The notes beneath the pieces are model-generated. The model was not told the origin of the DNA. It made no database searches and saw nothing but the letters and a program-made list of their open reading frames with translations. From contig JACDNV010000033.1 of assembly GCA_017656425.1 (NCBI GenBank), positions 1-6,071 of the forward strand: a stretch of 6,071 nt of DNA, read 5' to 3'. The first letter of the stretch is position 1. The number at the start of each line of letters is the position of its first letter. This DNA comes from Candidatus Neomarinimicrobiota bacterium. GTDB taxonomy: Bacteria; Fidelibacterota; UBA2242; B5-G15. Below, piece by piece: positions 1,495 to 6,071 of this stretch. Made by a program: the position numbers and the translations under genes.

Positions 1495-1694
1495 AAAGTG
1501 AAGCAATCAAAATTTTGATAATATTAATAAAACTAAGACCATTATTTAAGTAAAATTATTATTGTAGGACGATCAGCAGAAAAATAATGAAAAAAATAAT
1601 GAAAAGAAAAAGGCCTCACCTCAAAATCAAATAATATGGTAAATTCGTTTGGTGATAAATATTTCAAGTTTAATGAATACGGGTTTTGTTGTAA

Positions 1695-1735
1695 GGCGTA
1701 TGTAGTCCGTAACCATTTTGATATGCCTCTACATA
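1695..1735 (+). other. Two overlapping, mutually exclusive hairpins in the leader
   Basis: TATGTAG (1699-1705) is perfectly complementary to CTACATA (1729-1735). GGCGTAT (1695-1701) can instead pair with ATATGCC (1721-1727), with one G-U pair. The two stems share 1699-1701 and cannot form together in this form. Such overlap is seen in switching leaders, but no U-rich terminator follows either stem. Confidence 0.25.
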
Positions 1736-1762
1736 GCTATAGTCAGCCTACTTAAGTAACAG

Positions 1763-1806
1763 GCCTGGTGGTTGGAGTGAAGTAGGTGCAAACCAAATGG
1801 CCAGGC
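1763..1806 (+). other. Hairpin in the leader
   Basis: GCCTGG (1763-1768) pairs with CCAGGC (1801-1806), and TTGG (1772-1775) pairs with CCAA (1793-1796), separated by a small internal loop (3 versus 4 bases). The apical loop is 17 bases and purine-rich. There is no U-tract, so it is not a terminator; it could be part of a folded leader RNA. Confidence 0.3.
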
Positions 1807-2280
1807 TGCGAGCTATAAAAGCCAATGGCATAAAAATACCTGGAACACGCCGTTAAAAACAGCAAGGCAACTATCAAGATACGCCAAGTGGCATTAAACC
1901 GACAGAAAGCGCAAAGAAGGCATTTCGAAAACAACCGAAAAATATATCGGTATTAAAAGGAGCTATGACTAATCTCGCCAGAGGGCATTGCATTGAAAGG
2001 GCCAAGCGGACCAGTATAAAGCCCTGGCCTCCATTAAACTAAAAAATTTTCACCATCAATACTGCTTAATTTTTTAATTCCTCTTGGTTGATAGAGAGCC
2101 AAAGGTCCACGAAGCTGAGGCGTAAGCCCTTACTCTTGACACCTGACAGCTAAGAGGTAAAATGACAAGCGCGGTGTTAAAGGAATGGTGGTTTTCTTCT
2201 TTGCATCATCTGGAAATTAATAGAAATAATATTAACTGAAATTGGTGAGGCCAAAAATTTCCTGTAGTTTAAATTATTTC

Positions 2281-2285
2281 GGAGG
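2281..2285 (+). promoter_or_regulatory. Ribosome binding site of the membrane protein gene
   Basis: GGAGG lies five bases before the ATG at 2291, a strong though slightly close Shine-Dalgarno site. Just upstream, GAAATTGG (2238-2245) can pair with CCAA plus TTTC (2251-2261, three-base bulge), leaving the site itself free. Confidence 0.8.
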
Positions 2286-2290
2286 ATAAA

Positions 2291-3679
2291 ATGAAAACCA
2301 CAATAATTGCAAAAAATTTCATATATTCATACAAAAATTTTTCATATAGGACCAGGCCTATACTCCTTACGAGTTTAACTTTAATATACCTGGTAAACAC
2401 GTTTATTCATTGGGAATTCCTGAATATTTTAGTGAACAGTATTTGCTTACTTTGTATAATAATATGCTTTCCCTTTGTTAAAAGCAGTGCCCGTATTGTT
2501 ACTTCAATTTTATTACTTTTTGGATCCATATTATTAATTTTAGCCGGTGCTGATTTGAAATTTTGGATGAGCTCCATAGGTAAAAATATTAATTTGGTAA
2601 CCCTCCTTATCATTGTCCCCATATTCGGGCTACCGCTTTATTATGGAGGATACTATAAAGTTCTGGATGCCCTGGCATGCAGGTATATGAATAGTGGCCA
2701 CAGGATTTACTGGATTCCCGCCTTGCTTGCTCACTTTTTCGGGGCTCTTATGAATATAGGGGCCATACCCGTTGTTTATCAATTAATTATTCGCGGCAAA
2801 TTATCATCCGCTTTTCGCACGGTCCCTATTGCCATTTTAAGAGGATTTAGTTCAGCCATCTATTGGTCGCCTAATATGATCTCAGTGGCAGTAGTAACTC
2901 ATTACTTAAATATACCCTGGAAAAAATTTGCCCAAATAGGTATCATATTTACTTTATTAAGCTTGTTAGCTGGCTGGCTCGTAAATGTATATTTTTTCAA
3001 TAAAAAAACCTCGAAGCCAAAGCAGGAAACGAAAGACATACAGGTTAATAGTAAAAAATTAACGGAATTAATAATTTTCTGTTCTATTTTTCTCGGCATA
3101 ATCATTATCATCGCTATCAAAACTACAATTCCCATACTTAACGCTGTTCCTTTAATCGCCCTGGTTTACCCTGTTATATGGCTTAGTTTTTTGGGCAAGG
3201 GAAATTTAATCTATAATGCGTACCGTGATTATACAAAAAATACCTTGCCCAAGTTCACGTCGGAAGTAGTTATATTTCTAGGGGTGGGTTTCTTCGCTGC
3301 CGGCATATTGGCATCCGGTAGCAACGATAAAATATCATTATTCTTATATGAATTCATTGGTCTTAACTCCTATTTATTATGCTTTTTCATATCATCGTCG
3401 GTTATTATATTGGCAATTTTGGGGATTACACCGATGGTTACAGTAATGGCTTACAGCGCTTCATTAAACCCCGACTTAATTGGTCTTTCTCCACAACTAC
3501 TCTCACTGGTACTGGTAGGCGGATGGGCCACAGGCATATTAGTATCTCCTTTTACCGGAATAACCCTGATAATGTCGGGACTGACGGAAAAAACACCTTT
3601 CGAAACAGCCCGCGAAAACTGGCCCTACGCTGCTATTATGGTGCTACTGCTTTCAGCCGTGCCTATATTGCAGAAGTAA
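2291..3679 (+). CDS. Polytopic membrane transporter, probably ion-transporter superfamily
   Basis: A 462-residue integral membrane protein with roughly 11-13 hydrophobic segments, for example near 42-63, 68-87, 101-119, 141-168, 176-202, 213-235, 258-277, 281-301, 325-343, 352-376, 400-428 and 446-460. A Lys-rich loop at 237-257, probably cytoplasmic, divides it into two halves. The halves show a matching pattern: G-A-I-P at 157-160 then GFSSAIYWSP at 185-194, versus G-I-T-P at 378-381 then GWATGILVSP at 411-420, each followed by a hydrophobic stretch and P-W or P-F. Duplicated halves with membrane-breaking G/S/P motifs are typical of secondary carriers of the ion-transporter superfamily (DctM, SLC13, CitMHS types), which often move organic anions. 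I cannot assign the exact family or substrate. There is no signal peptide cleavage site. It sits 33 bases ahead of the activator gene, so cotranscription and control by that activator are likely. An uncharacterised non-transport membrane protein is not excluded. Confidence 0.75.
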   Translation: MKTTIIAKNFIYSYKNFSYRTRPILLTSLTLIYLVNTFIHWEFLNILVNSICLLCIIICFPFVKSSARIVTSILLLFGSILLILAGADLKFWMSSIGKNINLVTLLIIVPIFGLPLYYGGYYKVLDALACRYMNSGHRIYWIPALLAHFFGALMNIGAIPVVYQLIIRGKLSSAFRTVPIAILRGFSSAIYWSPNMISVAVVTHYLNIPWKKFAQIGIIFTLLSLLAGWLVNVYFFNKKTSKPKQETKDIQVNSKKLTELIIFCSIFLGIIIIIAIKTTIPILNAVPLIALVYPVIWLSFLGKGNLIYNAYRDYTKNTLPKFTSEVVIFLGVGFFAAGILASGSNDKISLFLYEFIGLNSYLLCFFISSSVIILAILGITPMVTVMAYSASLNPDLIGLSPQLLSLVLVGGWATGILVSPFTGITLIMSGLTEKTPFETARENWPYAAIMVLLLSAVPILQK

Positions 3680-3699
3680 ATGCCCAAAAATTTCGTCAA

Positions 3700-3712: not shown

Positions 3713-5632
3713 ATGTTAGATATAAAAATAGGCGTAGTTTCTACAGATCACGAAACATCCAAGATAATACAGGAACTGGCTGACAAAATGCATTTAGATA
3801 TTCTGTTAAAAGAAGGAATATTGGAAGAAGGAGTTGTACATGCCCGTCAGCTCGAGCGTGAGGGTGTAGATATAATAATTAGCCGCGGAATAACAGGAAA
3901 AAAAATAAAAAAGAAAATTTCCTTACCAACGGTAATCATTGAAATTACCGCCTTTGACATACTTAAGGCACTTAATTCCGCTAAAAGCTTGGGTTCCAAA
4001 ATAGCTTTTCTTGGTAATAGAAAAGATATAGGGCCTGAATTTGATAGCATTACCAAAATTTTAGGAATAGAAGTTGAATGTTACCCGTACAATAATACTC
4101 AAGAAATGGACGAGCAGGTTACGAAAATATTAAACTCCCATGTAGATGTTATCGTAAGCACGGGCCTGTGTATATTTGAAATTGCTAAAAAGTCGGGAAT
4201 GAATGCCATTCTTGTAAAATCCGGTTATGAAGCCATTTATAACTCCTTAAAACGGGCTATAGAATTAATCCACGATATTCGCCGCACCCAGGAATTTTCC
4301 CAGAAATTTAGATCCGTTTTGGAGTCAACCAATGATGGCATTTTTATATTAGATAAAGATAAACGTATTTCATTCGTGAACCCTGCCGCAGAAAAACTTT
4401 TAAATATAAATGCCCACAAAATTTTAGGTCATAAAGCTGATGAGGTTAATCATAATTCTTTTTTGACTCCTATACTTAATAATAAAAAACAAGAAATAAT
4501 TAAAAAGATCGGAGAAAAACAATTTTGGTTAAATACCGTGCCTATTAGAATAAAAAATAAAGAACAAGGTTTAGTTATAATGTTTCAAAGTGCAGATAGA
4601 ATACAAGTTTTGGAACAAAGGTTTCGCCGGGAACTATTGAAAAAAAGACTAGTTGCAAAGCATACATTTAATGATATTGTGGGTAAAAGTGAATTATTAA
4701 AAAATACAATAGAAAGAGCAAAAAAATTTGCTACTACTGACGCAACGGTTTTAATTACTGGTGAAAGCGGTACCGGCAAAGAGTTATTCGCCCACAGTAT
4801 TCATAATGAAAGTAACAGGTCCAAAGGTCCTTTTGTCGCCGTAAATTGTGCTGCATTGCCAGAAAATTTATTAGAGAGTGAATTGTTTGGATATGAAGAG
4901 GGAGCTTTTACCGGGGCCAAGAAGGGCGGTAAAATTGGGTTATTCGAACTGGCACATGGCGGCACTATTTTTCTTGACGAAATTGCCGAAGTGTCTTTAC
5001 AGGTTCAGGCCCGCCTGTTAAGGGCCTTGCAGGAATGTGAAATAATGAGGCTTGGCAGCGACAGGGTTATCCCCGTTGATGTCAGAATCATTGCAGCCAC
5101 AAACAAGGATTTGAGTGCAGCAGTACAGCAGGGGAAATTCCGTAACGATTTATACTACCGCCTGGAAGTGCTGGACTTAGAAATTCCCCCTCTAAGGAAA
5201 AGAAAAGATGATATTGAAGTTCTAGCCAATTATTTTAAAGATATATTGAGTCATCAAATAAGCAAAAATGTTCCCGACTTAACACCAACTGCAATAGAAC
5301 AATTAAAAAAATATGACTGGCCGGGTAATGTCAGAGAATTGAGAAATGTAATTGAAAAGTATGTTTTATTAATTGAAGATAATCAAAATTGTGACGATTT
5401 AATTATAAAATTAATAAATGAAAAAATTTTAAAATCTTTTAACATAAAAGCCGATGACTCTGAACACATTACCATAAAAATAGGCAAATGGGAAGATATG
5501 GAACAACAAATCCTCGAATATTTAAAGTCTAAGGGAACAAGCATTAAAGACTTAACTAAAATACTTGGAACAAGCCGCACAACTATTTGGCGAAAGTTAA
5601 AGAATTCCGGCAAAAAGTCATTGGCAAAATAA
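3713..5632 (+). CDS. Sigma-54-dependent activator, PrpR_N-PAS-AAA+-HTH
   Basis: A 639-residue enhancer-binding protein (numbering from the ATG at 3713). Residues ~1-190 resemble the PrpR_N sensor fold of propionate-catabolism activators, ending in the typical [14 protein letters not shown] helix. Residues ~195-299 form a PAS domain ([22 protein letters not shown]). The AAA+ core has Walker A GESGTGKE (350-357), the sigma-54-contacting GAFTGA (397-402), Walker B GGTIFLDE (416-423), the [11 protein letters not shown] arginine-finger region (476-486) and WPGNVREL (536-543). A Fis-type helix-turn-helix lies at ~610-631 ([20 protein letters not shown]). All catalytic motifs are intact. It should bind upstream palindromes, hydrolyse ATP and open promoters bound by RNA polymerase-sigma-54. 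There is no receiver domain, so it should respond to a ligand through PrpR_N and/or PAS rather than phosphorylation; the ligand is unknown. It is the second gene after the permease, behind a sigma-54 promoter, so autoregulation is likely. It is AT-rich with many A-ending codons, unlike the NMO-like gene. Confidence 0.93.
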
Positions 5633-5699: not shown

Positions 5700-5744
5700 A
5701 GGTCTCACTCTCTAAATGCCAAAGAGATTAGAGAAATGAGACCT
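5700..5744 (+). terminator. Imperfect intrinsic terminator of the permease-activator operon
   Basis: AGGTCTCA (5700-5707) pairs with TGAGACCT (5737-5744), and TCTCTAA (5709-5715) with TTAGAGA (5728-5734). A C opposite AA forms an internal loop, and the apical loop is 12 bases. The 15-bp stem begins 68 bases after the activator stop codon. The following bases (ATCTCAATATTTT) give only a weak U-tract, so termination may be partial. The near-symmetry also allows function against leftward transcription. Confidence 0.6.
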
Positions 5745-5757
5745 ATCTCAATATTTT

Positions 5758-5790
5758 GCAGTAAAGCTTTAATTAGCTTTTAATTACTGC
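5758..5790. repeat. Tandem AGCTTTAATT repeat inside a bulged hairpin
   Basis: AGCTTTAATT (5765-5774) is followed directly by AGCTTTTAATT (5775-5785), a tandem copy with one added T. The unit is enclosed by GCAGTAA (5758-5764) and TTACTGC (5784-5790), perfect reverse complements, and AGCT can pair with AGCT inside, leaving a five-base bulge. It could be a second, weaker transcription stop or an operator; slippage alone could also explain the tandem copy. Confidence 0.3.
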
Positions 5791-5809
5791 CAATTTTAAA
5801 ATATTTACC

Positions 5810-6071
5810 TTGAGTGGCCCAACCCACAATCCACCCCCTGCTTACCCTATCATGTCTCCCTGGGTCTGTGCCCTGACATTCCTTCGTTCAGCATAATGGG
5901 GGTGGGTGGGGCACCAGTACTCGTACGCAGGGTCATGCCCTAATGGAGATATTACAGGTTCCCCCACCCAAGGTTAAACTTTTATTTTATGATCATGAAG
6001 ATGAAGACTTATACCACCGTCGCAGGGGTTGTGGATATGTGGTCAACGCGGAGCGAAGGCCTGCGCGAATG
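5810..6071. other. GC-rich, inverted-repeat-rich tail; possible mobile-element edge
   Basis: Composition changes near 5810 from AT-rich to GC-rich. TGGGTGGGG (5903-5911) pairs perfectly with CCCCACCCA (5962-5970). Between them, AGGG...CCCT (5929-5941) and GTAC..GTAC form smaller hairpins. CGCAGG (6021-6026) pairs with CCTGCG (6060-6065). GGGTCTGTGCCCTGA (5862-5876) and GGGTCATGCCCTAA (5930-5943) are an imperfect direct repeat. A frame open from 5877 to the right edge has an ATG at 5943 with AGGG about ten bases before it, but its product resembles nothing I know. The motif TTGTGGATATGTGG (6029-6042) reminds me of noncoding ends of insertion sequences in related Firmicutes, but that is memory, not proof. 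Confidence 0.3.

Follow-up and report, generated by a model that had tools for sequence, protein, structure and literature searches.

A decayed ISLre2 transposase within the apparent long leader of a sigma-54-preceded operon

Why should an operon appear to carry a very long leader behind a sigma-54 promoter? At the locus described here, the leader contains the remnant of an ISLre2-family transposase, recognised from its sequence, and a near-consensus sigma-A-type promoter candidate stands between that remnant and the first gene. We consider it quite probable that these two elements, a decayed ISLre2 relic and a sigma-A promoter of the operon's own at 2136-2163, are the best explanation of the leader's length. 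Much of the leader would then be a 5'-truncated insertion sequence that shares the operon's orientation, and the true leader would be far shorter.

Layout of the locus

The window analysed here is one whole contig of 6071 bases from a 2.8-Mb genome. Its principal features are:

220-1197, - strand: nitronate monooxygenase gene (ORF list, Pfam)
1479-1494, + strand: sigma-54 -24/-12 site TGGCATACAATTTGCG, with exact GG-N10-GC spacing; predicted start about 1505
1505-1742, strand not assigned: AT-rich stretch, no detectable transposase similarity
1743-1844, + strand: conserved C-terminal core of an ISLre2 transposase, SAYLSNRPGGWSEVGANQMARLRAIKANGIKIPG (NF033529, residue identities, local profile)
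1845-2042, + strand: decayed remainder of the transposase frame, with an inner stop TAA at 1854-1856 and a final stop TAA at 2040-2042
2136-2163, + strand: near-consensus sigma-A/sigma-70-type promoter candidate TTGACA-16-TAAAAT, matching at 11/12 positions; predicted start about 2170
2164-2290, + strand: likely true short operon leader, read from the sequence and from the promoter candidate at 2136-2163
2281-2286, + strand: ribosome-binding site GGAGGA (sequence reading)
2291-3679, + strand: first gene, encoding a membrane protein of 462 aa that belongs to no named family (ORF list; ATG start at 2291)
3713-5632, + strand: second gene, a PrpR_N-PAS-sigma-54-activator protein (Pfam PF06506, PF00989, PF00158)

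The sigma-54 site joins GG-N10-GC to the -24/-12 consensus, differing from the consensus TGGCACGNNNNTTGCW at three positions. Shuffling the intergenic region 1000 times gave a site of equal quality in 37 cases and two sites in 15. A second sigma-54-like site, at 1339-1324, faces the nitronate monooxygenase gene, while that at 1479-1494 faces the operon; the divergent pair forms a 22-base imperfect inverted repeat, which suggests a common activator, possibly the protein encoded at 3713-5632. From the predicted sigma-54 start to the first ATG there are 786 bases, the distance given in an earlier note on this DNA. That note had also described a middle section less AT-rich than its flanks, and base composition agrees: GC content is 0.20-0.25 across 1401-1700, 0.40-0.45 across 1701-2200, and 0.28 thereafter.

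Searches of Pfam and NCBIfam returned no family for the membrane protein, and neither the species collection nor 245 genomes from the phylum yielded relatives of it, so that no insertion-free relative was available for comparison. Its distant relatives are plasmid-borne, 22-25% identical and all hypothetical proteins, one of them adjoining enoyl-CoA hydratase and acetate-CoA ligase family genes. The second gene has another in-frame ATG at 3680. Strong hairpins at 5700-5820, with z about -3 to -4 and immediately downstream of the activator gene, probably constitute the operon terminator, and the strong hairpin ATAAAGAACCGTGTAAG...CTTACACGGTTCTTTAT at 128-187, behind the nitronate monooxygenase gene, is probably a two-way terminator. 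Near the far edge of the contig, the open frame MKTYTTVAGVVDMWSTRSEGLRE... at 5998-6071 continues off the contig end and is unique in the genome.

The transposase remnant

The + strand frame from 1743 matches NCBIfam NF033529 with E=3.8e-6 over model positions 296-374 of 382, near the C-terminus. Since the piece is decayed and only 80 residues long, its score of 26 bits, far under the family's whole-protein cut-off of 200 bits, is what would be expected. When the whole genome was searched with the same model, this was the single place found (E=9.4e-6, one stop inside), and Pfam UPF0236, which describes the same family, matched the remnant weakly (E=0.03). The core at 1743-1844 is identical at 9-18 of 34 residues to each of ten ISLre2 transposases, taken from plasmids and species genomes, and a local profile built from these ten scored 27 bits at the remnant, while none of 300 shuffled leaders exceeded 4.5 bits. 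Some homologues had been retrieved by means of a motif drawn from this very remnant, which inflates both the local-profile and the identity scores; the NCBIfam match is independent of that step, and for this reason the claim of a transposase remnant rests on it.

How much of the gene survives? About the last 100 codons remain, and some 380 N-terminal codons are absent. Taken by itself, the tail at 1845-2042 is weakly supported, its best alignment, to the ISLre2 homologue L039, being equalled in 2 of 500 shuffles. Upstream of 1743, a frameshift-tolerant extension found transposase similarity scoring no higher than shuffles, and the resemblance there between YGFCCKAYV and YGCSAEGHV is suggestive by eye only. 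With an inner stop at 1854 and most of the gene gone, the element is a relic and not a working member of the ISLre2 family.

The earlier note had seen no convincing gene in this interval. No intact gene is indeed present, but a pseudogene had been overlooked, namely the end of an ISLre2 transposase. The same note had offered the scar of a lost gene as one reading, which is supported, the lost gene being this decayed transposase; it had also named a match to a broken transposase as the result that would count against a structured leader, and such a match is what the NF033529 search returned.

The ends of the relic are less distinct. No match to a right terminal repeat scored above shuffles in 2043-2290, and the left end and any target duplication likewise went undetected. 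One candidate for the element ends, the 9-base inverted repeat GGCCTCACC / GGTGAGGCC (about 1613-1621 and 2245-2253), was rejected, about one such pair being expected by chance on a rough estimate. Elsewhere in the window, GAATTTACACACAAAAGTTGACACAACC at 27-54, close to where the contig begins, is very similar to the right terminal repeat of Ligilactobacillus ISLre2 elements (L038, L050, L054) and thus marks another ISLre2-like end at the contig edge; no other close copy of it was found in the genome.

Folding of the leader

Does the region instead encode a structured RNA? Its length and intermediate GC content are in keeping with a structured regulatory leader or an independent small RNA, both of which had been proposed, and the former would be expected to fold beyond shuffled sequence. 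It does not: the folding energy of the entire leader is -176.4 kcal/mol, and that of shuffled versions -171.9 +/- 8.8 (z -0.51). In 120-base sliding windows across 1441-2400, z runs from -0.8 to +2.0, whereas it falls to between -4 and -5 at probable terminators in other parts of the window. The several potential hairpins described earlier are therefore no more numerous than chance would provide. At a loose threshold, comparison of the leader with Rfam gave no credible match and none near a gathering score, and a tRNA/tmRNA search found none. A DNA search for a homologous leader in the genome itself and in 60 related genomes returned only short AT-rich chance matches, and the middle section is of coding origin, as the NF033529 match and the residue identities indicate. 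Folding, Rfam and relatives alike leave both RNA proposals unsupported, and we regard either as highly improbable.

Promoters of the operon

The site TTGACA-16-TAAAAT is the sole 11/12 sigma-A-type site in the window, and a site of that quality occurred in 8 of 1000 shuffled leaders; its 16-base spacing is a little under that usual for sigma-A promoters. Published work places ISLre2 insertions 15-17 bases before the -35 of sigma-A promoters, the right end (IRR) adjoining the promoter (PMC3942029). The site at 2136-2163 had been found before this published rule was consulted. Among relatives the rule holds: six had a right end that could be clearly recognised, and five of these show a promoter match of 8/12 or better at 15-17 bases, compared with 3.5% of random positions; in the four of the six that have short tails the distance from transposase stop to -35 is 112-127 bases. 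Here the -35 begins 93 bases past the transposase stop, in the orientation that the rule describes, the exact tip of the relic not being located above chance. The candidate stands at about the place where a promoter would be expected from the insertion preference of ISLre2 elements. A transcription start close to the first gene, the other result that the earlier note had named as counting against a structured leader, is plausible on these sequence grounds.

Given this preference of ISLre2 elements for sites some 16 bases ahead of a sigma-A promoter, with the right end facing it, the operon most likely keeps a sigma-A promoter at 2136-2163. We propose that the element inserted in front of this promoter, which would be older than the insertion, and that the operon retained it, giving a real leader of about 120 bases (2170-2290). 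The relic would then separate the sigma-A promoter from the sigma-54 promoter at 1479-1494, which sits upstream of the relic. On the + strand no terminator-like hairpin was found across 1505-2290, so read-through from the sigma-54 promoter is possible and may add a longer transcript into the operon.

Alternatively, with the relic still an ISLre2 scar, the operon may be transcribed solely from the sigma-54 promoter; the 786-base leader would then be genuine, lengthened by the insertion sequence. The good site at 1479-1494 with its divergent partner at 1339-1324, the sigma-54 activator encoded in the operon itself and the terminator-free + strand all speak for this arrangement, and we treat it as a possibility of some weight, though doubtful in view of a near-consensus sigma-A-type site standing about where the insertion rule predicts. 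An origin of the -35 within the element has also to be weighed: TTGACAC at 2136 might be the tip of the insertion sequence, in which case 2136-2163 would be a hybrid promoter whose -35 comes from the element end and whose -10 comes from resident DNA. The sequence AAGTTGACRC does occur in the right ends of relatives and in the element end at 27-54, and TTGACAC is rare by chance, turning up in 36 of 5000 shuffled versions of 2043-2290; the match, however, is limited to seven bases with the remainder of the repeat differing, and in five of six relatives the promoter sits 16-17 bases beyond the tip, which leaves a hybrid rather unlikely. Still less credible is the reading that the operon, under a distant sigma-54 promoter and a nearby sigma-A one, has co-opted the relic, the transcript through the dead transposase having acquired a regulatory role of its own; we give this very little credence.

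Comparison with known systems

The ISLre2 family comprises the p-MULT 3 transposases of the Mutator superfamily (NCBIfam NF033529, Pfam UPF0236), and its insertion sequences have terminal inverted repeats and make a 9-base target duplication. Like these elements, the relic carries the C-terminal transposase motif SxRxSSRPxGWSxxGA..., and reads towards a gene, and a sigma-A-type promoter candidate lies shortly past its right side. Unlike an intact ISLre2 element, it consists of roughly the last 100 codons interrupted by an inner stop, and lacks the first 380 or so as well as recognisable terminal repeats. The operon, for its part, resembles sigma-54 operons with a PrpR-type activator in having a -24/-12 site upstream and the activator gene within it, but differs from them in the relic and the second, sigma-A-type promoter candidate that separate its first gene from the sigma-54 site.

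The relic comes from an ordinary kind of bacterial jumping gene, and with its recognition a spurious candidate for a novel regulatory RNA is struck off. The locus offers a small example of how the relic of a promoter-targeting insertion sequence can make a promoter seem to have a very long leader; where such leaders are met, all frames should first be checked for broken transposases.
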